31,229 nucleotides of DNA from a virus. Position numbers and translations under genes: made by a program. The stretch lies in the IMG/VR virus record IMGVR_UViG_3300042335_000123, positions 1 to 31,229 of that record. The stretch is one strand, 5' to 3'. This document shows, piece after piece, positions 13,143 to 25,988 of this stretch. The notes beneath the pieces were generated by a model. The model had not been told where the DNA came from, searched no databases, and was given only the letters and a program-made list of their open reading frames with translations. Each line of letters begins with the position of its first letter. The first letter of the stretch is position 1.

Positions 13143-13908
13143 CGTTGTTATTTCGCTGTTTTATTTGAGCGGCAAGGTCGCTCCGAACGCCATCACCCGA
13201 CTGGAAGCCGGGCGCACTACCTTGTGCTATTGCCGCATTTTTACGCTCTTTCAAAGATACTTTTTTGCCTTTATACATTCCTGCCCCCATTTCATCTATT
13301 TTGCTAAATGGTAATATCGGCACGGTTATTTTGCAAGTTTTGTCAATTAGGTAAATATATCTTAATTGAAAACCATTTAGATATTTAAATTCTTTAGGTG
13401 CTGCCGCTTTGCCGTTATTATTTAATATATGTTTTCCCTTTTGAAATGTAAAATCTGAAACAACTTTGCCATTCAATACACCCAAAGTTTGATTTATTTT
13501 TATTGATGTTAAATTAAAACCACTTGCACGATATATTGTACCATCTCCGCATTGTGTTCCATCGCTAAAACTTAATATCCATTTAATATGTGATGCATTT
13601 TTTTTAATTAACTTAATAGTAATTGCAATGCATCTGCTTTCACTATATTTTGGCAAATAATTATCAAATGCCATTCTGTTCAATTCAAGCATATCATTCC
13701 ATCCAGTGTTAGTTACTAATTGTAAAACTTTTCTTTTGTCCATTGGACTACCATAACTTAAAACTCCGTGAAGTTTATCATCAAGGAAGCATCCGAAATG
13801 AAGACTGCTATTTGGAACGCATTTTCCTGAATAATGGTGCTGCTTTACAAACTCATTTGCAATTTTACTTGGTATTACTTTTACGATTATTTCCTTTGCC
13901 CTGCCCAT
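13129..13908 (-). CDS. Mom-like DNA adenine modification protein (GNAT-type fold)
   Basis: A 259-residue protein with the pattern of the phage Mu Mom family: FVKQHHYSGKC (20-30), then CFLDDKLHGVLSYGSP (40-55), ELNRMAF (75-81), YSESR (88-92) and SFSDGTQCGDGTIYRASGF (113-131). In Mu, Mom adds a carbamoylmethyl group to adenine N6, which protects phage DNA from many restriction enzymes. The core appears complete. The C-terminal 60 residues (GAGMYKGKKVSLKERKNAA and GFQSGDGVRSDLAAQ) form a basic tail that may bind DNA. The gene body from about 13300 to 13900 is more AT-rich than its neighbours, a sign of recent acquisition. A ParB-like gene overlaps it by 22 nt. An N-acyltransferase acting on another substrate is the main alternative. 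Confidence 0.68.
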   Translation of the reverse strand: MGRAKEIIVKVIPSKIANEFVKQHHYSGKCVPNSSLHFGCFLDDKLHGVLSYGSPMDKRKVLQLVTNTGWNDMLELNRMAFDNYLPKYSESRCIAITIKLIKKNASHIKWILSFSDGTQCGDGTIYRASGFNLTSIKINQTLGVLNGKVVSDFTFQKGKHILNNNGKAAAPKEFKYLNGFQLRYIYLIDKTCKITVPILPFSKIDEMGAGMYKGKKVSLKERKNAAIAQGSAPGFQSGDGVRSDLAAQIKQRNNNDAES

Positions 13909-14503: not shown

Positions 14504-15079
14504 CTATTTTATTTTTTTTGCTGGTACTCCTGCGTAAACACCTGATTCAGTTATATCGTTCAACACCACCGCCCCTGCTCCTATCGTCACCCCATCGCAT
14601 ATATGTACGCCCTCACGTATCACTGCGTTTGTACCAATATAGACACAATCACCTATCACGCAATAACCACTTACCCGTGCTCCCGGTGCAAGCGTTACAT
14701 AATTGCCAATCACACAATCGTGACCGATGTCTGAATGTAAGTTCATATGCAGATGCCTGCCCGCAATTACGTTAGTGGTTATCACTGCATAAGGGCATAG
14801 TATCATCCCATTGTTGTAGCTTGAAGTCATCGCTGTCTTATGGATGATGCGGTCATAGTTCTGATTTCTCGGCATCTCTTTCACCAACTGCATACGAACG
14901 GTCGGATTGCCTATTGCAATTACCGTTGGCATATCTGTTGGCAACGTGGATAGTGGCAGTTCGTCATTGCATAGGTTATCACTTACGTAGAATGCGATGT
15001 GGTTATACCCCGAATATTTCGCCCACTGCTCTACTTCCCGACCGAAGCCACCCGAACCAACTATCGCAAGGCTATTCAT
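14504..15079 (-). CDS. NeuD/PglD-type sugar O/N-acyltransferase, left-handed beta-helix
   Basis: A 191-residue protein when started at the ATG at 15079 (MNSLAIVGSGGFGREVEQ), which overlaps the aminotransferase stop by 8 nt. An ATG at 15148 is in frame but lies deep inside the preceding gene. The N-terminus is the Rossmann-like unit of the NeuD/PglD family (AIVGSGGFGREV). From about residue 85 on, hexapeptide repeats form a left-handed beta-helix (IIHKTAMTSSYNNGMILCPY and similar), with the catalytic-type His in HSDIGHDCVIGNYVTL. The family transfers acetyl groups from acetyl-CoA to sugars, often an amino group made by a DegT enzyme. The neighbouring gene is such an enzyme, so the pair could make an N-acylated amino sugar. 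The sugar itself is not known. Confidence 0.82.
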   Translation of the reverse strand: MNSLAIVGSGGFGREVEQWAKYSGYNHIAFYVSDNLCNDELPLSTLPTDMPTVIAIGNPTVRMQLVKEMPRNQNYDRIIHKTAMTSSYNNGMILCPYAVITTNVIAGRHLHMNLHSDIGHDCVIGNYVTLAPGARVSGYCVIGDCVYIGTNAVIREGVHICDGVTIGAGAVVLNDITESGVYAGVPAKKIK

Positions 15080-15707
15080 AATATACTGCGAATTTAGACA
15101 AATCAGGATAAGGCAAGCTGATGTCGGGCATTTCCTTTGCCGTGCCATCCAAGTTGTAAAACTGCTGCATATCTCGTACGCCCTTTGCTGCTATTTCAGG
15201 TAACAGATAAAAGTTCCAACCAAGCATCTCGAATGTATCTACATGGTAGCTGCATTCACCCCTGCCGCTGAACCTCGCACGCTTGAACCAATTATATGCG
15301 TAAAAATTGTCAGTCAGTATCGCCCCTGCCTTTCCAAGTTTTAGATGCTTGTATGGTCCTGTAAATGATAGGCATTGATACTGATGTTCTCGATACATAC
15401 CTGCTGTAAATCGCAATGCTGAATCCCAAACCGAACTGCCTATAAGCTGATATTCGCCAGTCAATATTCTTTCGCTTTCAATGAAGTTCACCTTATTACC
15501 TGAATGTATGATTGCACAAGGCACTGATGGATAAGTGTGCTTTGGTATGCTGATTGTCTTGTTGACTACCTTACCCATATGCTTTTCATACATCAGCGCA
15601 AGAAATAACGCATTGCTTTGATTATCTACTGCCACTGCATATGGTGAACCTGTGTATTCGCATAGCTTCCTTTCAAATTCTGCTGTGATGTCGTATATTG
15701 ATGTCAT
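15072..15707 (-). CDS. Half-length DegT/DnrJ-type aminotransferase-like protein
   Basis: A 211-residue protein. It has the features of the N-terminal large domain of the DegT/ArnB/PglE sugar aminotransferases: a phosphate-binding segment AVDNQSNALFLAL (26-38), a WDSALRF segment (94-100) in the place of the usual EDxAQ region, and the PLP-lysine region CLSFTGPYKHLKLGKAGAI (112-130), in which Lys120 is the likely Schiff-base lysine. Full-length family members have about 360-400 residues. The C-terminal small domain is missing and the next gene begins immediately, so this is a compact version, not a sequencing break in an obvious sense. Position beside a NeuD-type acyltransferase suggests that it aminates a nucleotide sugar or serves as a binding protein. 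Confidence 0.65.
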   Translation of the reverse strand: MTSIYDITAEFERKLCEYTGSPYAVAVDNQSNALFLALMYEKHMGKVVNKTISIPKHTYPSVPCAIIHSGNKVNFIESERILTGEYQLIGSSVWDSALRFTAGMYREHQYQCLSFTGPYKHLKLGKAGAILTDNFYAYNWFKRARFSGRGECSYHVDTFEMLGWNFYLLPEIAAKGVRDMQQFYNLDGTAKEMPDISLPYPDLSKFAVYYE

Positions 15708-16987
15708 TGCCTTGCTTTTATGAAGTCATCGAAACTGCCATCATAGCCCTTATGTGCATACTCCCACTTGTATTGTCGGTATAGTGGGTTCACCTCTTCT
15801 ACGTTGTTTATTTGATTTTCAAAATAGTTATTCAGATACCCTATTCTGTTTATGTTGTTCCAATGCTTGAACATAGTGCTTTCAAGACCGCCATAGTATT
15901 TTTTTGGCTCTTCAAGTCCACCGATATGCCTTAAAAACTTCAAGTCAGCACACGATATTGACTGCGTACACGCCTGCGTTGGTTGCCAAATCTCATAGTT
16001 CATATAGTGCCACTGATGATAGCCACGCTCAATCATTTCACGCCTGCATATGTCGAACATAAGGCATAAGTATTTCACATTCTCGTGCTGTATCACATCC
16101 ATCATTGCCGCATCCCACCCTTGCGTTACAGGGAACGAATCACAATCGTATAGAATAGCATAGTCATAGTTCAGTGTGTTTATCAGTTCGTTATAGCCTG
16201 CTGACAACCCTCTGTTGTATCGCTCACCGATAATGGTTATGTTGTATTTGCTTTTAAGCATTTCAACCATCTCAACGGTCAGGAATGGATAGGCATTGTC
16301 CACTGCATATATGGGCAGGTTAAGTGTATTCGTGTTCCTCAACTGCTGCATACTGCGGTCAATGATTTCATATTCATTGTATAGCAGTGTGAATATCGCC
16401 TGCGTTTTTATTTTCTTGCGTACAACAAATTCATTGCCGTACTGACCAAGCACATCATATTCTTGAAAGTTTATTGCATCTACGGCAGGTCTAACTTCAG
16501 GGCTGTATAGGTGGTCGTTGTAATCATCAAAGACTATGTAGCCGCCATCAGATACCATCTTGCTGTATAGCTTAAAGTCGTTTTGCACTCCTGCATAGGA
16601 ATGGTCGCCATCAATGAATAGAATGTCAATCTTATCGCCGTTTAGCAGTTCCTTTACTATATTGGCTGTGGATGGGTATTGTGAATTGGCTTCGATGTAT
16701 TGATAGCTGTTGTTATGTTTATTCAATCTGCTTACGTTGTCCATCACTCGCTCCTTAGGTATCGGACCGCCCAAGTCTATTGATATGACATTCGTATTGG
16801 GTCGCTGCAACATCAAACACGCTGAACCGCCTGCATAACAACCTATCTCTACATAGTTCAACTGCCTGCCATTATCATATGAATTAGCAATGTCGAATAA
16901 AATATGGTATTGCAGATGAAAGGTTTCATTGTTTATTGCGGCTGCAATCTGTTTTGTCAGTTCGAGCGATTCTGTCGTGATATTCAT
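15704..16987 (-). CDS. SAM methyltransferase fused to a GT2-type glycosyltransferase
   Basis: A 427-residue two-domain protein. Residues about 30-190 are a class I methyltransferase of the Methyltransf_24 type: YVEIGCYAGGSA (45-56, SAM loop), SIDLGG (69-74), LFIDGDHSY (123-131) and YIVFDDYND (150-158). Residues about 195-427 are a GT-A fold: FTLLYNEYEIIDRSM, AVDN (228-231), RYNRGLSAGYNELI (256-269) and the metal-binding DCDSF (281-285). Methyltransferases of this type act on sugar hydroxyls, so the protein could add and methylate one sugar. It overlaps both neighbours by ATGA. The fusion is intact, with no stop or frameshift between the halves. Confidence 0.82.
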   Translation of the reverse strand: MNITTESLELTKQIAAAINNETFHLQYHILFDIANSYDNGRQLNYVEIGCYAGGSACLMLQRPNTNVISIDLGGPIPKERVMDNVSRLNKHNNSYQYIEANSQYPSTANIVKELLNGDKIDILFIDGDHSYAGVQNDFKLYSKMVSDGGYIVFDDYNDHLYSPEVRPAVDAINFQEYDVLGQYGNEFVVRKKIKTQAIFTLLYNEYEIIDRSMQQLRNTNTLNLPIYAVDNAYPFLTVEMVEMLKSKYNITIIGERYNRGLSAGYNELINTLNYDYAILYDCDSFPVTQGWDAAMMDVIQHENVKYLCLMFDICRREMIERGYHQWHYMNYEIWQPTQACTQSISCADLKFLRHIGGLEEPKKYYGGLESTMFKHWNNINRIGYLNNYFENQINNVEEVNPLYRQYKWEYAHKGYDGSFDDFIKARQ

Positions 16988-17247
16988 TTTGTGCGCTTCC
17001 GACCGTTTACTGGTTTGCTTTCATAAGTAGCGTAAATCGTGTGTTCATATAGTCGTTTCATCATATCCTGTACGCAGGTCGGGCAGGATAGGTCAGGCGG
17101 TGGCATATTGAATAACTCTACGTGTACGGATAGCATCGTCATCAGGTTTGACTGCGATTGGTTGTCGCCTGATACGAAGCCTGCCACTTTCCACGTGTTG
17201 TATGTAGTCCACGCTGCCTTTAGTCGTTCGTATTGTGATTGGTTCAT
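16984..17247 (-). CDS. Small protein with a CPTC motif, function unknown
   Basis: An 87-residue soluble protein with a Cys-x-x-Cys motif in DLSCPTCVQDMMKRLYEH and a basic C-terminus. The first half is an amphipathic helix (YERLKAAWTTYNTWKVAG) that may mediate dimerisation. A single CxxC is not enough for a zinc ribbon unless it dimerises. Both ends overlap neighbours by ATGA, so it is translated between the membrane protein and the methyltransferase-glycosyltransferase. Small proteins with a C-P-T-C-V-x-D-M motif occur in other Bacteroidetes phages, but no role is known to me. Confidence 0.6.
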   Translation of the reverse strand: MNQSQYERLKAAWTTYNTWKVAGFVSGDNQSQSNLMTMLSVHVELFNMPPPDLSCPTCVQDMMKRLYEHTIYATYESKPVNGRKRTK

Positions 17248-17507
17248 AGCTTAGTGATGTATTTTGTTATGATGTACCCTGCGAACATCGATGTGAAGCA
17301 CAAAGGTATTAATATTTCAAATGACACGTGGTTGATGATGCCAAGTGTCAGGCATACCCAGAACGATAAACACTTCGTGCAATCAAAGGGCTTCATTCGT
17401 TTGATGTTGAAGAACCACTTGAATGTCTGTACCACATTGCTCACAGGGTAGATGGCTGCTGCAATGAACGGCGACAATATCAATATCCATTCACGATGAA
17501 GTTCCAT
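17244..17507 (-). CDS. Small membrane protein with a CxxC motif
   Basis: An 87-residue protein with hydrophobic segments at about 7-26 (ILILSPFIAAAIYPVSNVV), 47-63 (FWVCLTLGIINHVSFEI) and 65-84 (IPLCFTSMFAGYIITKYI), so two or three membrane passes. Between the first two is the motif PFDCTKCLSFWVC, a metal-binding or redox-like pair that recurs in phage membrane proteins with C-x-x-C-x-x-F/W. It starts 28 nt inside the end of the glycosyltransferase gene and overlaps the next gene by ATGA. Its location in the glycan cassette suggests an anchor or transporter role near the membrane, but this is inference. Confidence 0.6.
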   Translation of the reverse strand: MELHREWILILSPFIAAAIYPVSNVVQTFKWFFNIKRMKPFDCTKCLSFWVCLTLGIINHVSFEILIPLCFTSMFAGYIITKYITKL

Positions 17508-19180
17508 AGCTGTACACGTTTTTTGTTCACAGTGTCGATGTGAAATTTATGTTTAACTGATTCGTATAACGCATTGCCGTAGTCCTCACGCATTGCAGGG
17601 CTTTCAATCATTCGCTTGATTTGTTTGTACCAATCTTTATGGCTTCGGTTAGGCTCAACTGGCACATAGTTGCTGCCGTTGTAGTGCGGTTGATAGGGAT
17701 GGATATTTGATACGATGCACGGCTTCTTCTTGAATCCTGCTTCTGCAAGTTTAAGCGGCGACTTGCATTTGTTGAACTCATTCTCCTTAAGCGGCACAAG
17801 GCACACATCCATTTCGTCTAATAGGTAGCCGTAGTTGTATATGTCCTTGCCCCATATACGCCTGTACTTTTCGTTAGTCGTGATGTTGGTCGTTTCGTAT
17901 TTCTTTAACTCGGCTGCATAGTCAGGTGATAGGCAGTTGTAGTTGTTTGTAAATACCTTTTCGTACTTGTATGATTCCTGCGCCTGCATCGGTATCGGTC
18001 GTTCTTCATACACGCCGTTGATAAGAAATGCCTGCTTCTGTCCATTGCTGAAGCCACCATACACAATTTGATACTTGCCATTTATTGACAAGTCATCGTG
18101 AAGCCTTTCCATCCCATCAGCCATCATCTGTATGTCAGGCAAATGACAGATGCCGCCCTGCCACCCTACACGCACAAGGTCTGATTCCGTTGCCGTACTG
18201 CTCCATTGCGGTTGGTCTGGGTTGATGCCGTTCGGTAATACCTCTACATTCGTGTTGTAGTTCTTTATCTTGTCTGCAAGGTATGATGTCGTTGTGGTCA
18301 CATAGTCTGCCGCTCGTATCGTGTCCACCACTCTGTTTGATTCTTCTCTGTTATATGCATAGTATAGAACGTGGTCGTGTGGCAGTACCCAGTAATCGTC
18401 AATGTCGTACAACACCTTGCACCCTGCCTGCTTGGCTGTGTTGATTAGGTGTACAGGGTTGATTGACCTCGATGCCTGCCTTGTGATTACTAACAACTGA
18501 TAGCTCTTAAAAAAATCTGCTTTCGCTTCGTCTATGTTGTTTATTAGCGTGATGTCGATGTGCTTGTAGTTGTCTGCGATATGGTGTGCAGGAATAAGGC
18601 AGCGGTGGTACTCCACGCCCGATTCAGGTACGCTGCGAAGCATCAGCACCTTGTATGGTTGGTTGTTCATATAGTCTTTGATTTGTCTTTTGCTTTTCTT
18701 TAGCGAGAAGTGGATGGCTGATGTCGGGATGCCTGTTTCTCGGTGCAACTTGCGAATTGAACCCTCTGCGATATAGTGCTGCAATATCCGTGCATCGTAG
18801 GGGTACTTCCCGATGCTGCCGTAACTTTTTTCTTGATCTTGGATGTAGTCTTGGATGCCTGCTTCGTCATAGGTTGTTGGTTTTGTTTCATCAAAAGTAA
18901 CCACATTTATATTTTCATTCAGTTCATCGTGTAGGTGCTTACGGTACTTGTAGTTGAATGTCGAACGTGGACTGCGCCACATCGTCATCACAATACGTAC
19001 TGCAAAGAACTTGATGTTGTTCGCCCCCTGTGCTTCAATAGCTGCAAGTTTATTCTTGTCGTACTCCAACAGGCACAATAACACTTCTTGATACAAGTCG
19101 TCTGTCAGGTCGTGGTTGTTGGTTATCTTCTTGCAGATGCTCAACAACTCGCTGCCTGTATATAAGTCCTGAAAGGTCAT
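17480..19180 (-). CDS. ECF-sigma-like domain fused to a GT4-type glycosyltransferase
   Basis: A 566-residue single frame. Residues 1-85 look like sigma region 2: ICKKITNNHDLTDDLYQEVLLCLLEYD (15-41), with the DDLYQEV core, then FFAVRIVMTMWRSP (58-71). Residues 128-170 form a region 4-like HTH (EGSIRKLHRETGIPTSAIHF). A short linker follows, and from about 176 to 566 a GT-B enzyme of the GT4 family is visible: DIDDYWVLP (259-267), NVEVLPNGIN (311-320), RVGWQGG (337-343) and VPLKENEFNKCKSPLKLAEA (462-481) with the donor-binding Glu. ECF sigma factors direct promoter choice; GT4 enzymes transfer sugars from nucleotide donors. An internal start at Met171 is possible, but no stop separates the halves. 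It overlaps the RuvC-like gene by ATGA. Confidence 0.78.
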   Translation of the reverse strand: MTFQDLYTGSELLSICKKITNNHDLTDDLYQEVLLCLLEYDKNKLAAIEAQGANNIKFFAVRIVMTMWRSPRSTFNYKYRKHLHDELNENINVVTFDETKPTTYDEAGIQDYIQDQEKSYGSIGKYPYDARILQHYIAEGSIRKLHRETGIPTSAIHFSLKKSKRQIKDYMNNQPYKVLMLRSVPESGVEYHRCLIPAHHIADNYKHIDITLINNIDEAKADFFKSYQLLVITRQASRSINPVHLINTAKQAGCKVLYDIDDYWVLPHDHVLYYAYNREESNRVVDTIRAADYVTTTTSYLADKIKNYNTNVEVLPNGINPDQPQWSSTATESDLVRVGWQGGICHLPDIQMMADGMERLHDDLSINGKYQIVYGGFSNGQKQAFLINGVYEERPIPMQAQESYKYEKVFTNNYNCLSPDYAAELKKYETTNITTNEKYRRIWGKDIYNYGYLLDEMDVCLVPLKENEFNKCKSPLKLAEAGFKKKPCIVSNIHPYQPHYNGSNYVPVEPNRSHKDWYKQIKRMIESPAMREDYGNALYESVKHKFHIDTVNKKRVQLWNFIVNGY

Positions 19181-19614
19181 AAGCCATATACTAACATCGC
19201 CGCATCTCGCACTTCCTGATTCGTTCGCTTATCGTACCCTGTTAGCCGCTTGAATTGCTCGGCATTGACCTTGTGCTTCTTAGGGATGACAAGGTGGCAC
19301 TGATAGTTGTTGCGTATGCAGTACACCTCAATCAACTTACCTACTGCGTGATTCTCGCCCACGTTCTTGGCTATCTTCTGCGCCACGTTTGACTTGCCGC
19401 CGTGCCAGTTGCTTTTTTTATTCAGCCACCCTGCTTCAAGTTTTACAATCGTTCTGCGCCTGCTGTTCCACTCTTCAATCGTCTGCAACACATCGAAGAA
19501 TGAACCTGTGAATAGTTGCATCTTGTCGTCAGCATATCGGTCATAAACACATAACCCTGACTTGTCAAGGTCAGGGTCAATGCCAATATACAATATGTGG
19601 TTGTCAATGGTCAT
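19177..19614 (-). CDS. RuvC-like Holliday junction resolvase
   Basis: A 145-residue protein with the RNase H-fold signature of RuvC: YIGIDPDLDKSGLCVYD (9-25, catalytic Asp13), VKLEAGW (57-63, Glu60), and EVRDAAMLVYG (134-144, Asp137). In host RuvC these acids hold the metal that cuts four-way junctions. It could resolve branched DNA before packaging, which suits its place ahead of the terminase genes. The length is close to bacterial RuvC (about 170), slightly shortened at the C-terminus. It overlaps both neighbours by ATGA. A crossover-junction nuclease of another RNase H subfamily is the only realistic alternative. Confidence 0.82.
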   Translation of the reverse strand: MTIDNHILYIGIDPDLDKSGLCVYDRYADDKMQLFTGSFFDVLQTIEEWNSRRRTIVKLEAGWLNKKSNWHGGKSNVAQKIAKNVGENHAVGKLIEVYCIRNNYQCHLVIPKKHKVNAEQFKRLTGYDKRTNQEVRDAAMLVYGL

Positions 19615-20008: not shown

Positions 20009-22258
20009 CTATTGAATTGTGATTGTTTTAGTTGTTGACCAAGCACCTGAACCTGTCTGACATCGTGACTGCGATTGTACTTCAATCGTCGTTCCTATTG
20101 TTGCAGGTCGTGTGATGGTTAAGCCATTAGTTGTTGTTTCGCTCCAAGCCGTAGTTCCTACATTGCGGAAGCGTATTGCGTAGAACTTGCTGCCGTTGTT
20201 TACGAATGTAGTTGTCCACCTGCCACCACTTGATGACAAGGTGAAGTCTGCCGGTGCTTGTGATATGGCAGGTACAGTGTATGTGATTTCACTTGTCGCT
20301 GACTTCGTGCCATTAGTACAGGTTGCTGTTGCCCTTAATACCACGCTCGATGCCTGTATCGGTAATGTGGTTGTGTATGGTGCTGATAAGTTCTGCGTGT
20401 TCTGTGCGCCGCCATTCACTGCATAGCTGAATGATATGGATTGATAGTTCGTGTTCGGTGCAATGCTGACCGTTACCGCTTGGCACGTTGTTGATGCTGT
20501 TATGGTCGGCTTTGTGCAAGTCGGGGGTGGTGGCGTTACGCTGATGCTGATGGTCACGAAGCCATCGCCAGTGCATCCATTTGTCGATGTAACAGTAACG
20601 CCGTATGATGTAGTCACAGTCTGCGTGATGGTGATGCTCTGCGTGGTCTGTCCACCTGCCCATTTGTATGTGTATGGCGCAGTGCCGCCTGTTGCGTTGG
20701 CTGTGATTGTGGTCGGTGTACCTGCCTGTACGCTCGATGGCGCATTGATTGATACCTGCATCGGGTTCGTGATGGTGAAGTTCTTCGTCGCCGTTGTGCT
20801 GCCGTTTACATTCGTAGCCGTTAAGGTCACGGTCTTTGTGCCGCCTGTTGAATAGGTTACATTCGGACTTATCGCTGTTGATGTGGCAGGTGTTGCGCCG
20901 CTGCCCAAGTTCCACAAGTAGCTTGTTGCATTCTGTGATTGATTGGTGATGTTAGCCTGCACCCCTGCACAAGTCGTGCTGATGTTGCCTATTGTCACTA
21001 CTGGTAAGGATGAAGCAGGGGCAAATGTGCCTGTGATATAATACCTGCCCACGCTGTTGTATCGTTTGTTCTGTGGTCTGTTCGCAATCGGGTCAGTGTC
21101 GTAACAGGGGGCATTCATATTCGGGTTGGCTGATGAACCTACCTGAATGAAGTACGTGCCTGCAGGCTGATTGATTAGCGTTATGCTTGATGACAATTTC
21201 TGCAAGTTAGAATCAAGAGCAATGATGTTGCCCGATGCGTTGCGTATGATTAGCCTTGTGTCCATTGTCGCCTGCCAGTTATCCGACTGCCTGAATGAAA
21301 ATGGTCGGCAGTTGATGGTGAAGTTCTGCGCCGTTGTTATCGTGAACCTGAAGTAATCTTCATCGTAGATTGATACAGGTGGATTGTCGATGTAGTGGAA
21401 TGAAGTCGTGTTCGTGAATGACCTGCCTATCATACCCGAATCGCTGATTGCGTTATTCACTATGTTAATATTCTTAGCCGTTGCCGTTGTGTTTCCGATG
21501 TCGTCTGCTTTCAATGATAATAGTTTTGGATGCGGCGTGTAACCCTTGCCGCCTATCCGTTGAAGTGATAATTCTGCGATGTCATCCTGCCAGTTCGGCA
21601 TATTGAAGCCGCCCGACATACGCCACCCACAAGGACCGCTTATTGGTCCGCATACCCAAGCCCCGATATTGCGACCGTATGCCACGCCCATCTGTGGTGC
21701 GAATGATGTTTCGCCCTCACCCTTGCCGTAATAATAAGCTGCTACTGCTTGACCTTGTGCGTTGTTCTCTGAATGGTGATTCAAATACAGCATATGCCCT
21801 GCTTCGTGTGCTGTTGCGTTGGCAATGCTCTTGAAGTCAGGTTGTCCGTTGCTCGTTATGTTTTTAGTGAATACAAATCCAGGTTGATATGCCTGCCATC
21901 CCCACGCACCGACAAAGGCAACACCGCCGACACCGCCATACCACGAATCCGTTGGCGTTAATACAATCGTGCCACGCTTGCTTGTCTGTGCTGCGTTATA
22001 TACGGATTCGATTGTGGTCACGTTCAAGTCGAATATCCAATAGTAGTTCGCAACAGAATTGAATACATCACGAATCTGTTGTGTGGTGAATCCTGATGAT
22101 GCAGCGTTGATTGTACTTGCTGACCAGTTCGGGTTGTTGATTACTGCGCCATCGAAGTCAAGGAATAGAACATTGGTGCTGTTCGGCAACGATTGAAGCT
22201 GCGGAACTTGTGCCGACACGTAGGTGCATATCAGCAGTAGAAGTGTAATGATTCGCAT
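20009..22258 (-). CDS. Secreted metzincin-like metalloprotease with PKD/Ig-like repeats
   Basis: A 749-residue exported protein. A signal peptide (1-16, MRIITLLLLICTYVSA) is followed by a catalytic domain (about 25-240) with the zinc motif HEAGHMLYLNHH (151-162): three His ligands at 151, 155 and 161 and the base Glu152. Position 158 is Tyr in place of the metzincin Gly. A PPC-like domain (283-376) is next, then a PKD domain (about 428-497, SYLWNLGSG), a second Ig-like repeat (500-575), a Pro-rich linker, and two Cys-bearing repeats to the end. It has the architecture of secreted Bacteroidetes proteases. There is no typical type IX sorting C-terminus. The role could be degradation of host surface proteins. 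It has a hairpin over its start codon. Confidence 0.8.
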   Translation of the reverse strand: MRIITLLLLICTYVSAQVPQLQSLPNSTNVLFLDFDGAVINNPNWSASTINAASSGFTTQQIRDVFNSVANYYWIFDLNVTTIESVYNAAQTSKRGTIVLTPTDSWYGGVGGVAFVGAWGWQAYQPGFVFTKNITSNGQPDFKSIANATAHEAGHMLYLNHHSENNAQGQAVAAYYYGKGEGETSFAPQMGVAYGRNIGAWVCGPISGPCGWRMSGGFNMPNWQDDIAELSLQRIGGKGYTPHPKLLSLKADDIGNTTATAKNINIVNNAISDSGMIGRSFTNTTSFHYIDNPPVSIYDEDYFRFTITTAQNFTINCRPFSFRQSDNWQATMDTRLIIRNASGNIIALDSNLQKLSSSITLINQPAGTYFIQVGSSANPNMNAPCYDTDPIANRPQNKRYNSVGRYYITGTFAPASSLPVVTIGNISTTCAGVQANITNQSQNATSYLWNLGSGATPATSTAISPNVTYSTGGTKTVTLTATNVNGSTTATKNFTITNPMQVSINAPSSVQAGTPTTITANATGGTAPYTYKWAGGQTTQSITITQTVTTSYGVTVTSTNGCTGDGFVTISISVTPPPPTCTKPTITASTTCQAVTVSIAPNTNYQSISFSYAVNGGAQNTQNLSAPYTTTLPIQASSVVLRATATCTNGTKSATSEITYTVPAISQAPADFTLSSSGGRWTTTFVNNGSKFYAIRFRNVGTTAWSETTTNGLTITRPATIGTTIEVQSQSRCQTGSGAWSTTKTITIQ

Positions 22259-23397: not shown

Positions 23398-24135
23398 TTA
23401 TGTGAATTTAATGTTCTTGTACACTTCGGGATTTGTAAGGCTTGATTCGTCGTTTTTATGCCCTTTTTTGGCAAATTTAGAATTAGTCAGCCAATCGGCT
23501 TGGAATCCTCCCCACGAGTTCTCGATTGCTGCCTTGATGCAATCATTCGCTGTTAGGTCTGTTTTTTTGATCTCTCGCCATATCTTCAGGAATGCAGTGC
23601 GTGTGTTGGTCAGGTGTTTGTTCTTGCGGACTTTCAGCCATTCGTCTGCAAGGTTTGAATCGACACCCATCTTCAGCAGTGCATCCTTTGCATCGAATTT
23701 TGTTTCAACACCATTTTTATCTTTATTTTCATTATCATTTATATTTTCATTTTCATTTTCATTTTCATTTTCAGAACGTATTACGTTCGTATTACGTTCG
23801 TATTCACTATTATTTGATGTTGTTTTCTTGGTTTTATTCCATCTACTTTTCACTGATTCTGCGGCTTTCAGGCTTTTATCTCTGCGTTTTTGTGCCTCAA
23901 TTTCAAGACGCTCATTGTAACTGCCACGTTCATCGTGTTTGAATTTTTGAAACACAACATTGCCATTTGTAATCGATTCGCATTGCGTTCGTAATACGTT
24001 CGTATCAATCCTGCCACCATGCTGATGTTGAGCGCATAGCATACGGATATACAAACCTATCTGTTCATTCGTCATAAACATTGTTCCAGTCAGAAAATCT
24101 GAACTGTAAAATAAAAATGCTGGGTCTTTACTCAT
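23398..24135 (-). CDS. Replication initiator-like protein (phage O-type, DUF1376-like N-terminus)
   Basis: A 245-residue protein from the ATG at 24135 (MSKDPAFLFYSSDFLTGTMF). An in-frame ATG at 24171 lies inside the upstream hairpin and is unlikely. Residues 1-90 resemble the N-terminal domain of phage replication proteins that start with YxxDFL and then EQIGLYIRML, a winged-helix-like fold. A linker of repeated Glu-Asn pairs (about 110-130) follows, encoded by hexamer repeats. The C-terminal part (KHLTNTRTAFLKIWREIKKT and ENSWGGFQADWL) resembles the DNA-binding or loader-binding domains of such initiators. It precedes a DnaC-like gene, as O precedes P in lambda, and contains iteron-like repeats. 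Confidence 0.7.
   Translation of the reverse strand: MSKDPAFLFYSSDFLTGTMFMTNEQIGLYIRMLCAQHQHGGRIDTNVLRTQCESITNGNVVFQKFKHDERGSYNERLEIEAQKRRDKSLKAAESVKSRWNKTKKTTSNNSEYERNTNVIRSENENENENENINDNENKDKNGVETKFDAKDALLKMGVDSNLADEWLKVRKNKHLTNTRTAFLKIWREIKKTDLTANDCIKAAIENSWGGFQADWLTNSKFAKKGHKNDESSLTNPEVYKNIKFT
23725..23772 (+). repeat. AT-rich hexamer array (ATTTTC)n in the initiator gene
   Basis: Eight 6-nt units in a row: ATTTTC, ATTATC, ATTTAT, then five exact copies of ATTTTC (23743-23772). On the coding strand they give a Glu-Asn repeat that forms the protein's linker. The array abuts a cluster of 11-bp repeats. Such an AT-rich stretch could serve as the DNA-unwinding element of an origin, but slippage-prone linkers also arise without function. 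Confidence 0.7.
23774..23804 (+). repeat. Iteron-like repeat cluster 1
   Basis: Two exact 11-nt direct repeats ACGTTCGTATT at 23783-23793 and 23794-23804. They are preceded by a GAACGTA that forms a palindrome with the first copy (GAACGTA, T, TACGTTC; 23774-23788). Because 11 is not a multiple of 3, the repeats are read in different frames, so they were kept at the DNA level and not as a protein repeat. They are 4 kinds of the same motif as cluster 2 about 200 bp away. Confidence 0.6.
23985..24006 (+). repeat. Iteron-like repeat cluster 2
   Basis: Two further copies of the 11-nt motif in tandem: GCGTTCGTAAT at 23985-23995 and ACGTTCGTATC at 23996-24006. They share the core CGTTCGTA with cluster 1, about 200 bp away, and the orientation is the same. 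Together the four copies in the initiator gene resemble lambda-type iterons inside the O gene. Confidence 0.55.
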
Positions 24136-24142
24136 AATAAAA

Positions 24143-24187
24143 AAACCCAACAGTTTCAGTGGAACGAACACCTACGCTGCTGGGTTT
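24143..24187 (-). terminator. Terminator-like hairpin before the initiator gene (leader A)
   Basis: On the minus strand, AAACCCAGCAG (24187-24177) pairs with CTGTTGGGTTT (24153-24143): 11 bp with one G-U pair and a 23-nt loop, followed by seven T. It ends 7 nt before the ATG of the initiator. Because the promoter lies upstream (24238-24245), the hairpin sits inside the leader, which fits an attenuator, not a simple end-of-gene terminator. Confidence 0.6.
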
Positions 24188-24233
24188 GGGTTAAAGGTTT
24201 AACCAATATCTTAAATGATGTCGTTCTCATCAT
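24156..24233 (-). CDS. Putative leader peptide A (25 residues)
   Basis: A short frame opens with two tandem ATGs (24233 and 24230) about 5-8 nt after the promoter's -7 element and stops at 24156-24158, in the loop of the following hairpin. It begins MRTTSFKIL, which matches the start of leader peptide B (MTASIKIL) before the methyltransferase gene. It contains no other known domain. The position of the ATG would make the RNA nearly leaderless, as occurs in Bacteroidetes. Translation is not shown. Confidence 0.4.
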   Translation of the reverse strand: MMRTTSFKILVKPLTQTQQRRCSFH

Positions 24234-24237
24234 ACTG

Positions 24238-24245
24238 CAAATATA
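24238..24245 (-). promoter_or_regulatory. Promoter -7 element before leader A
   Basis: TATATTTG on the minus strand matches the Bacteroidetes -7 consensus TAnnTTTG exactly and sits in the context AAGTTATATTTGCAGTA, shared with the promoter of leader B. No TTTG is seen at the -33 position, so strength is uncertain. It would drive the replication initiator and loader genes. Confidence 0.6.
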
Positions 24246-24253
24246 ACTTATTT

Positions 24254-24733
24254 TTATTTTAATTTATTAAGTTGGTCTAAGTTCCAAAAATACATTGGTG
24301 GTGAAACATTTTTATTTTTTACAATTCCATTCCAATACCTGCCAATATTATTTATGTTAATGTAATAATTACCGCATGGCTCAATATCTTCATGTATAAA
24401 AACAAGAAATAAATCAATTCCAGTTGCTTGACTTATTTTTTTATATTGACAATATAATCTGTTATCACAACCAGTTTCAATAATGTTACCGAATTTAACC
24501 CATTTCTTTTTTCTTTTTACTTCAATAAATACACATTTTTGATTCTTAAATATAGTTAGATCAGGGCTTGTAATTACTTCATTAGAAAGAAAAATTTTTG
24601 GTGCAATATCTTCACTAAATTGGTACAATGGTAAAATTGAATATCCTTTATTTAAGAAATATTCTGCAATTATCTTTTCTCCATCTTTACCATATTGTAA
24701 TTTATCCTTAAAATTTTCCTTTGTCTGCTCCAT
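24254..24733 (-). CDS. PD-(D/E)XK-type nuclease-like protein
   Basis: A 159-residue protein if started at the ATG at 24733 (MEQTKENFKDKLQYG). An ATG 54 nt further up lies within the preceding gene. It has the restriction-endonuclease-like pattern: a helix with Glu (GEKIIAEYFLNKGYSIL), then SPDLTIFKNQKCVFIEVKRKKKW, in which Asp58, Glu71 and Lys73 form the metal-binding P-D...E-x-K set. A basic strand follows. Members include Holliday junction and repair nucleases and phage homing-like enzymes. It may act with the neighbouring methyltransferase as a restriction-type pair, or in replication. It is very AT-rich, like the gene upstream, and overlaps it by 26 nt. Confidence 0.7.
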   Translation of the reverse strand: MEQTKENFKDKLQYGKDGEKIIAEYFLNKGYSILPLYQFSEDIAPKIFLSNEVITSPDLTIFKNQKCVFIEVKRKKKWVKFGNIIETGCDNRLYCQYKKISQATGIDLFLVFIHEDIEPCGNYYININNIGRYWNGIVKNKNVSPPMYFWNLDQLNKLK

Positions 24734-25841
24734 AATGATCCCAGTTTGAACGGTTTTGACGACTAAAAAAATCAAGTTTATTGCCAATACACATACGCTC
24801 TACCATTTCATAAAATGCTTCAGGTTTACGTGAATGCTCACGCCTTGATTCAACTATTAAATCACGCTCTGAACTGCCCTGAATAATTGGATTTCCTTTA
24901 ATTGCTAATAGACAAAATTCAAGCTGCATGCGAACGGTTCTGCCAATACCCATTTTTACTTTATCCCAAACAAGTGTGGCTTTATATTCGAATCCCCATT
25001 GACGAACCAATAAAAAAGAATCTTCTAAAAATGCGTGTGTTGTCCATAAAAACAAAACGCAATTTTCTGCAGCTGGTAATTCAATTTCTTTAATTTGATT
25101 AATAGTCATAGTTGGGTAATCAACTGCACCACGGTTTGAAACTGAATCATAATTCTCACTATCAAATCCGCCTTTTTCAGAATACGCCCATGGTGGATCT
25201 ATAGCAATAACATGGTATTTTTTATCAGGTTGAATTAAATTTTCCTGTTCAATTTTTTGTTTTGTTTCTTCAATTCGTTGATCACGTTCCGCTTTCTTTT
25301 CCTCCTTCTTTATTTCCTGATATGCCTGATTAATACTTACCTCACCAGTTGAAAGTTTTGCTTTTACTTCAGGCGTTGCAATAGCTTCAATTTTCTTAAC
25401 CTTTGCAATGGTGTCGTGTGATACGTTGGCAACTTTTGATATTTCTTTTATAGTGTTTATTGGTTGTATATTCGACTTTTCAGATTTATGAAAAGTGGTT
25501 TTTCTTTCCGTTTCTTTTTCTTTTGCCTTTGCGCTAAACACTTCTTCAAGCTGCAACGCTAAAACGCTTCGTTGATAGTTGCTTAAATTTCGCCTACCAA
25601 ACTGGTTGCGAATCATCCACTCTTTTACCTCAACTTCATTTTCAAAATATTTTTCTTCAGTATTAAATTTAAGATTATGCTTTTGCGATATCTCGTACCT
25701 GTTATGTCCATCAATGATAAAACCATTCCAAGTTAGAATGGCATCACGGATTCCATCTGAAATACAATTTGCTTCAAGTTGCGAATATTCATCCGCAGTA
25801 AGTGGTGGAATTAATTTTTTGAATTCTTCTTTAATTTTCAT
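24708..25841 (-). CDS. ParB-domain fused to MT-A70 adenine methyltransferase
   Basis: A 377-residue protein. Residues 1-80 are a ParB N-terminal-like domain with IDGHNRYEI (43-51). About 85-200 is a KorB/ParB-like HTH segment (TIKEISKVANVSHDTIAKVK, 130-149) plus a Lys/Glu-rich linker. Residues about 207-377 are an MT-A70 methyltransferase: HVIAIDPPW (210-218) with the DPPW catalytic motif, FLWTTHAFL, and the C-terminal REHSRKPEAFYE (334-345). MT-A70 enzymes methylate adenine N6; the ParB domain would place it on DNA. It would protect phage DNA against restriction or mark it. The gene has its own leader and is AT-rich. It overlaps a PD-(D/E)XK nuclease gene. Confidence 0.88.
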   Translation of the reverse strand: MKIKEEFKKLIPPLTADEYSQLEANCISDGIRDAILTWNGFIIDGHNRYEISQKHNLKFNTEEKYFENEVEVKEWMIRNQFGRRNLSNYQRSVLALQLEEVFSAKAKEKETERKTTFHKSEKSNIQPINTIKEISKVANVSHDTIAKVKKIEAIATPEVKAKLSTGEVSINQAYQEIKKEEKKAERDQRIEETKQKIEQENLIQPDKKYHVIAIDPPWAYSEKGGFDSENYDSVSNRGAVDYPTMTINQIKEIELPAAENCVLFLWTTHAFLEDSFLLVRQWGFEYKATLVWDKVKMGIGRTVRMQLEFCLLAIKGNPIIQGSSERDLIVESRREHSRKPEAFYEMVERMCIGNKLDFFSRQNRSNWDHYGADKGKF

Positions 25842-25853
25842 GTTTTATTTTTT

Positions 25854-25949
25854 TTAATAAAAAACCCCTGATATTGCAGTAGCCACCGCCAAGAGGCATT
25901 CAACAACAAAAGGGGATTTTAAATTTAGTATCTTAATACTGGCGGTCAT
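25854..25949 (-). CDS. Putative leader peptide B (31 residues)
   Basis: A short frame from an ATG at 25949, about 6 nt after the -7 element, through the hairpin to a TAA at 25854-25856, 12 nt before the methyltransferase ATG. It begins MTASIKILNLKSPF. The first residues match leader A (MRTTSFKIL). Unlike leader A, it runs through both arms of the hairpin, so ribosomes would melt it. Translation is inferred, not seen. Confidence 0.38.
   Translation of the reverse strand: MTASIKILNLKSPFVVECLLAVATAISGVFY
25861..25920 (-). terminator. Terminator-like hairpin before the methyltransferase gene (leader B)
   Basis: On the minus strand AGGGG-type and CCCCT-type arms (plus-strand cccct at 25865-25869 and agggg at 25911-25915) pair. 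The flanking A and T runs extend the stem across one mismatch, and a T-tract (six) follows the last arm. The loop of about 40 nt holds a second small GC-rich hairpin. It lies between a promoter and the ATG, as in leader A, and suggests attenuation. Confidence 0.5.
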
Positions 25950-25955
25950 TTACTG

Positions 25956-25988
25956 TAAATATAACTTTTATTTCTTTTTCAATTCAAA
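25956..25988 (-). promoter_or_regulatory. Promoter before leader B
   Basis: TATATTTA at 25956-25963 is one base off the TAnnTTTG consensus, in the context AAAAGTTATATTTACAGTA. TTTG at 25985-25988 lies 21 nt upstream, within the spacing reported for Flavobacterium promoters. The -33 part is inside the end of the preceding gene. It would drive the methyltransferase and nuclease genes. Confidence 0.5.

Follow-up and report, generated by a model that had tools for sequence, protein, structure and literature searches.

Why are two large genes in one stretch of phage DNA preceded by leaders of the same design, and what might such leaders do? The stretch analyzed here, 31,229 nucleotides from an IMG/VR virus record and referred to as the window in the following, carries both leaders on its minus strand—leader A in front of a replication initiator gene and leader B in front of a DNA methyltransferase gene. 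The original prediction took them for paired attenuators or leader-peptide controls, which perhaps sense translation and balance DNA modification with replication. Comparison with relatives suggests a different picture: the two leaders belong to a class of cis-acting phage RNA leaders that seems not to have been described so far. As far as sequence and covariation can tell, this class is marked by a kissing helix, two further helices termed P1 and P3, a terminator shape, a promoter, and a tight coupling to the start of the gene.

Gene order around the leaders

On the minus strand, the order runs from a small gene (26192–25968) via leader B, a ParB/MT-A70 methyltransferase gene, a 166-aa ORF, and leader A to the replication initiator and a helicase loader. 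The two genes that follow the leaders are:

23398–24135, minus strand: gene 3′ of leader A, phage replication initiator/primosomal protein, 245 aa (phrog_6451, 1.1e-25)
24708–25841, minus strand: gene 3′ of leader B, fusion of a ParB-like part and an MT-A70 adenine methyltransferase, 377 aa (MT-A70, 3.7e-23)

The former also matches phrog_678 (replication initiation, O-like; 3.8e-16) and the latter phrog_359 (DNA methyltransferase; 1.4e-50) and the ParB-like phrog_12047 (3.3e-4). Within the initiator, a TTTTCATTTTCA repeat (window 23735–23775) encodes an EN-rich linker. The 166-aa ORF (24754–24254) appears PD-(D/E)XK nuclease-like by eye and has no Pfam match.

Two relatives, L083 and L084, are devoid of leader B, the methyltransferase, and the 166-aa ORF (window 24254–25963) and retain leader A, which is directly adjoined by the same upstream gene. 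This absence gives the leader B block the look of an inserted cassette for modification or restriction-modification, equipped with a kissing leader of its own.

The minus strand of the window bears further genes: a tRNA gene (13168–13236; Rfam RF00005, 38.4 bits), several ORFs at 14504–19180 that by eye resemble acetyltransferases, aminotransferase/glycan-synthesis proteins, and glycosyltransferases—unusual cargo for a small phage—and a 749-aa secreted protein (20009–22258) that combines a metalloprotease-like HEAGHMLYLNHH motif and repeats of the PKD-like kind. One ORF (19180–17480) seems, again by eye, to start like a sigma factor and to end like a glycosyltransferase.

Anatomy of leaders A and B

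Both leaders exist as first described, with all elements in place on the minus strand. An ATG lies close behind a TATATTT(G/A) box (4 nt in leader A, 6 nt in leader B) and opens a short frame, which stops inside the hairpin in leader A (MMRTTSFKILVKPLTQTQQRRCSFH, followed by the stop) and continues through it in leader B (MTASIKILNLKSPFVVECLLAVATAISGVFY, followed by the stop). The terminator-like T-run hairpin ends 3–20 nt 5′ of the ATG of the large gene. What had been overlooked is a complementarity between the bases just 3′ of each start codon and the loop of the next hairpin. In the following, these two segments are called A and A′. The elements are:

24238–24245, minus strand: leader A promoter, −7 element TATATTTG, TAnnTTTG type
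24215–24233, minus strand: leader A 5′ hairpin P1, stem ATGATG/CATCAT (24233–24228 with 24220–24215)
24143–24187, minus strand: leader A terminator hairpin, outer stem AAACCCAGCAG/CTGTTGGGTTT (24187–24177 with 24153–24143)
24139–24145, minus strand: leader A U-tract, end 3 nt 5′ of the initiator ATG (24135–24133)
25956–25963, minus strand: leader B promoter, −7 element TATATTTA
25939–25946, minus strand: leader B segment A, ACCGCCAG, immediately 3′ of the ATG (25949–25947)
25861–25920, minus strand: leader B terminator hairpin, outer stem AAAATCCCC/GGGGTTTT (25920–25912 with 25868–25861)
25859–25864, minus strand: leader B U-tract TTTTTT, about 17 nt 5′ of the gene ATG (25841–25839)

Both promoter boxes agree with TAnnTTTG, the −7 consensus of Bacteroidota promoters (PMC7366714), and a possible −33 element (TTTG, 25988–25985) precedes that of leader B. 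The shared context AAGTTATATTTnCAGTA has exactly two copies in the window, at 24249–24233 and 25967–25951; one more window site resembles it with three mismatches, and three such matches were reached in 1/100 shuffles. Scans for E. coli-type promoters and terminators gave no more matches than shuffled sequences and missed long-looped hairpins.

In leader A, the loop AGAACGA of the 6-bp P1 contains segment A (GAACGA, 24226–24221), and both ATGs sit in the 5′ arm of this stem. The outer stem of the terminator is followed by an internal loop (CGTA/GAAA), the inner stem P3 (GGTG/CACT), and an apical loop with A′ (TCGTTC, 24167–24162), the complement of GAACGA. In leader B, P1 is weak (GTA/TAC, about 3–4 bp), P3 is GCC/GGC, and the apical loop contains A′ as TTGGCGGT (25892–25885), with ACCGCCA/TGGCGGT as the core of the complementarity. 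The folding energy of leader A beats 200/200 shuffles (z −2.88); that of leader B is unexceptional (z −0.88). A predicted intrinsic terminator—stem plus U-tract—lies between promoter and gene, and both leaders combine a 5′ segment complementary to the terminator loop with a promoter and a gene start. A descriptor of promoter, segment complementary to the terminator loop, terminator, and ORF finds exactly these two leaders in the window. Leader A is a good fit to the class, and leader B is a looser member.

A covarying kissing helix

Relatives of the methyltransferase and the initiator were collected and their upstream regions inspected. Many bear a promoter and a terminator-like hairpin that ends just 5′ of the start codon; the peptide is not common to them. 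What the relatives share is the complementarity between segment A behind the promoter and A′ in the hairpin loop, as in GTCTTCAC/GTGAAGAC, AGGTCGAAGC/GCTTCGACCT, GACCCGA/TCGGGTC, and GTGCAT/ATGCAC.

For a quantitative assessment, leaders were chosen by promoter, terminator, and ORF only—A–A′ pairing was not used—and clustered into 49 sequence-distinct groups. An A–A′ score of at least 15 is reached in 47/49 distinct leaders against 6.8 expected from mismatched partners, and a score of at least 18 in 36/49 against 1.7. In a background set of 656 kb, the descriptor of promoter and ORF gave five matches, none of them convincing.

A held-out scan kept the flanking conserved bases fixed and allowed any base at six positions each of A and A′. 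It yielded at least 147 distinct matches: 135 of the 147 listed are perfectly complementary (chance about 0.04), 11 bear one mismatch (three of these G–U), and 1 is a chance match. At least 42 different A hexamers occur among the matches listed. A promoter is present in 129 of the 146 held-out matches listed, and a T-run in 143 of these 146, though it was absent from the search pattern. In 138 of the 146 listed, an ORF starts 1–42 nt behind the T-run.

In an alignment of 12 members, all eight A–A′ pairs form in 12/12 sequences; six of the eight are changed on both sides and none on one side only, and slid controls are only 24–50% paired. From the same alignment, RNAalifold predicts the A–A′ helix unaided, and no other helix. 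P1 is 70% paired there in an imperfect register. As MAFFT lost the register of P1 and the terminator stems across types, these pair counts are limited to the A–A′ helix and, approximately, to P1.

Close relatives show the same on a smaller scale. The contig of L041 contains both leaders, with 92% DNA identity to the window over 550 bp of the initiator region. Its leader A bears ACGCAG/CTGCGT where the window has GAACGA/TCGTTC—a matched change in A and A′—and the outer stem changes in a matched manner as well, from AAACCCAGCAG/CTGTTGGGTTT to AAACCCAGTGGT/GCCATTGGGTTT. The P1 stem is retained in L041/L085, with a loop that now reads AACGCAG. Taken alone, the six-pair helix of leader A is equalled by about 14% of mismatched partners. 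Leader B of L041 is nearly identical to that of the window, and L041 is the only distinct relative with the same A and A′; hence, leader B is backed by its architecture rather than by covariation of its own.

P1, P3, and the terminator stem can coexist with the kissing helix

In this class, P1 stands at the 5′ end of the RNA, and the terminator consists of an outer stem, an internal loop, P3, and an apical loop with A′. Compared with mismatched partners, P1 scores of at least 10 were found in 32/46 leaders (5.7 expected) and P3 scores of at least 8 in 35/46 (7.5 expected), with 0/5000 permutations in either case. In some members, leader B among them, P1 was weak or escaped detection. The internal loop is often AGUA/GAA, which may resemble the sarcin-ricin/loop-E motif, or UGAA/GGA.

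In 48/48 leaders, the first 34 nt find their best partner entirely inside the hairpin loop, and pairing to the terminator arms is at chance level (5′ arm, P = 0.18; 3′ arm, P = 0.81; mismatched partners). Hence, A–A′, P3, and the terminator stem appear built to coexist, which speaks for a kissing loop rather than an antiterminator. A classical terminator/antiterminator switch was rejected, as no upstream segment pairs to a terminator arm beyond chance.

A proposed attenuator and its alternatives

Most likely, the leaders are cis-acting attenuators in which the kissing contact controls the terminator. The best explanation, for which we see about even chances, is that A–A′ kissing holds this terminator closed; termination in vivo, the direction of the lock, and its trigger are what we infer from the architecture. 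Transcription would start at P1 or a few bases before it. P1 would form at the 5′ end of the RNA with segment A in its loop, followed by an AT-rich spacer. The intrinsic-terminator hairpin would then form, with A′ in an apical loop closed by P3 and the U-tract before the start codon. A and A′ would interact as an intramolecular kissing loop compatible with the terminator stem. This could happen before transcription of the terminator is complete, a timing in line with the folding of the nascent intermediate (see below). This contact would keep the hairpin closed and limit expression: as long as the 5′ fold stays unaltered, RNA polymerase would leave the template at the U-tract. An RNA-binding protein, a ribosome, or a complementary RNA, supplied by phage or host, might relieve this state by occupying P1 or unfolding it. 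The strong outer stem might also terminate unaided, and, hence, the lock could be superfluous.

The contact might also act in the opposite direction. Nascent segment A could grab A′ ahead of the synthesis of the 3′ terminator arm and thereby prevent the terminator from closing, with expression on by default and a freed segment A turning it off. That A′ leaves the polymerase ahead of the 3′ arm is in line with such a capture, and so is folding restricted to nested structures: in 63/68 leaders, the nascent intermediate has A–A′ as its minimum free energy (MFE) helix, and the terminator appears in the full-length MFE structure, with its arm paired in 59/68. However, A′ overlaps a terminator arm in 0/48 leaders, upstream pairing to the arm stays at chance—unlike in classical antiterminators—and the conserved P3 displays A′ within an already formed hairpin. 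We consider capture rather unlikely and, since all helices can coexist, favor the terminator lock with modest confidence.

Less probable still is an action on the read-through mRNA, by protection of its 5′ end or control of translation initiation, with the T-run as an incidental feature. P1 at the extreme 5′ end and a hairpin near the start codon, often within 20 nt, would suit this role. It does not account for the T-run behind the hairpin in nearly all held-out matches listed, which the pattern did not demand, nor for the A-rich and U-rich flanks of the stem, as found in intrinsic terminators.

The leader-peptide or ribosome-sensing attenuator of the original prediction is very improbable. 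In its favor, the short frames of both window leaders start at the 5′ end and resemble each other in an S-(F/I)-K-I-L stretch, and the near relative of leader A has kept an uninterrupted frame. There, however, the peptide is freely altered (MMNAASCKISVKHLT), and the ATGs of leader A make up the stem of P1. By eye, the window frames MMRTTSFKILVKPLTQTQQRRCSFH and MTASIKILNLKSPFVVECLLAVATAISGVFY are without runs of one regulatory codon, and no conserved translated short ORF was found in the leader, as the peptides differ among near relatives. An ATG occurs within the first 40 nt in 10/68 nonredundant leaders, whereas 40 are expected from shuffles; hence, start codons are avoided in the 5′ region, and leader peptides were rejected for the class on this ground. 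In the window pair itself, the short frames probably arose from the ATGATG stem and by chance. The prediction therefore stands in so far as these are cis-acting leaders of one design with a terminator-like hairpin before the gene, and it is not supported for peptide control and the sensing of translation, as relatives of the same architecture usually have no such frame. Likewise, of the two features whose conservation was to be followed in relatives, the peptide starts are lost, and the hairpin pairing is retained and covaries.

A free small RNA gene that merely ends before the next gene is just as improbable: promoter and terminator alone would give an RNA of roughly 90–110 nt, but the start codon follows the T-run within 42 nt in 138 of the 146 matches listed.

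Relation to known systems

The closest working analogue is the rep attenuator of the pT181 type. There, an antisense RNA kisses in trans, and the 5′ terminator arm is the pairing partner of an antiterminator (PMC4878617). Like pT181 and Inc18-type plasmid attenuators (PMC4878617), the phage leaders have a 5′ hairpin followed by an intrinsic terminator ahead of a replication initiator gene, involve loop–loop kissing, and bear orthogonal loop sequences. Unlike in pT181, the phage leader kisses in cis, with the terminator loop, and arm pairing is not above chance. Antisense control of the pT181 type was rejected for lack of a clear excess of antisense promoters (TAnnTTTG at 4/48 elements against 2.0 expected, consensus search only).

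The window copies share with the trp, his, and ilv leader-peptide attenuators a short frame followed by a terminator before a structural gene. They differ in that the phage frames are not conserved, ATGs are depleted, the window frames hold no regulatory codon runs, and a mutually exclusive antiterminator is missing. With pseudoknotted or kissing cis-regulatory RNAs—riboswitch aptamers that use loop–loop contacts as well as STAXI and other motifs (PMC2864571)—the class has in common a covarying tertiary pairing in the 5′ leader; yet the phage kissing segments are free in sequence instead of forming a conserved ligand pocket, and their partner is the terminator loop. Rfam did not match the leaders in the window at the gathering score, nor the elements of eight relatives at E ≤ 1, and a kissing leader of this kind is not described in the literature searched, which excluded most subscription journals.

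Distribution among genes and phages

About 49 protein families lie downstream of the leader (310 entries, redundant across overlapping loci). The largest group is formed by several replication-initiator families, unrelated ones among them: DUF6291, Lin1244_N, HTH_36, DnaD-like, O-like, and primosomal. NUMOD4/HNH endonucleases, ParB-methyltransferases, DEAD helicases, DUF3987 primase-like proteins, DUF6378, and many short proteins are served as well. As so many families are served, and as the leader B-methyltransferase block is missing from L083 and L084, which keep leader A, a special balance between DNA modification and replication finds no support.

Whole contigs contain up to three descriptor matches. 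At loci with several copies, segment A of one copy is cross-complementary to A′ of another in 0/42 ordered pairs. Isolated phages bear the leader, too. Among four genomes scanned, Flavobacterium phage tooticki6-1 contains one element (L379:11597–11690; P1 GTAG/CTAC, A GTCGTCG, A′ CGACGAC) before the HNH endonuclease gene gp032, and identical copies exist in 34 records of isolated Flavobacterium phages. In Cellulophaga phage phi13:2, a single leader precedes gp060 within the 50 kb covered; lillamy9-1 and a 50-kb part of elemoA_7-9A yielded no element. A nearly identical leader (GTAG/CTAC, GTCGTCG/CGACGAC) occurs in an IMG/VR contig (G002, L385), near 19439–19540, before a 120-aa ORF unrelated to the endonuclease, which suggests that leaders are exchanged between genes. 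A search of host-genome contigs with two short generic peptides returned only distant matches outside the Bacteroidota.

Implications

The replication initiators of many Bacteroidota phages are preceded by a structured RNA class whose covariation is very strong and for which the sequences tested gave no match in Rfam 15. It makes the control of phage replication in this phylum testable. The copies in isolated Flavobacterium phages offer immediate experimental access. The class resembles plasmid copy-number attenuators yet acts in cis and could serve as a source of natural orthogonal RNA switches. It may also embody a new regulatory principle—a suggestion we rate somewhat below an even chance—of self-contained promoter-plus-attenuator cassettes with a private kissing code between 5′ hairpin and terminator tip, which travel between phages to time or dose early genes. 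If true, such cassettes would sit before replication initiators, homing endonucleases, and methyltransferases, with a code that differs among the copies in one genome.
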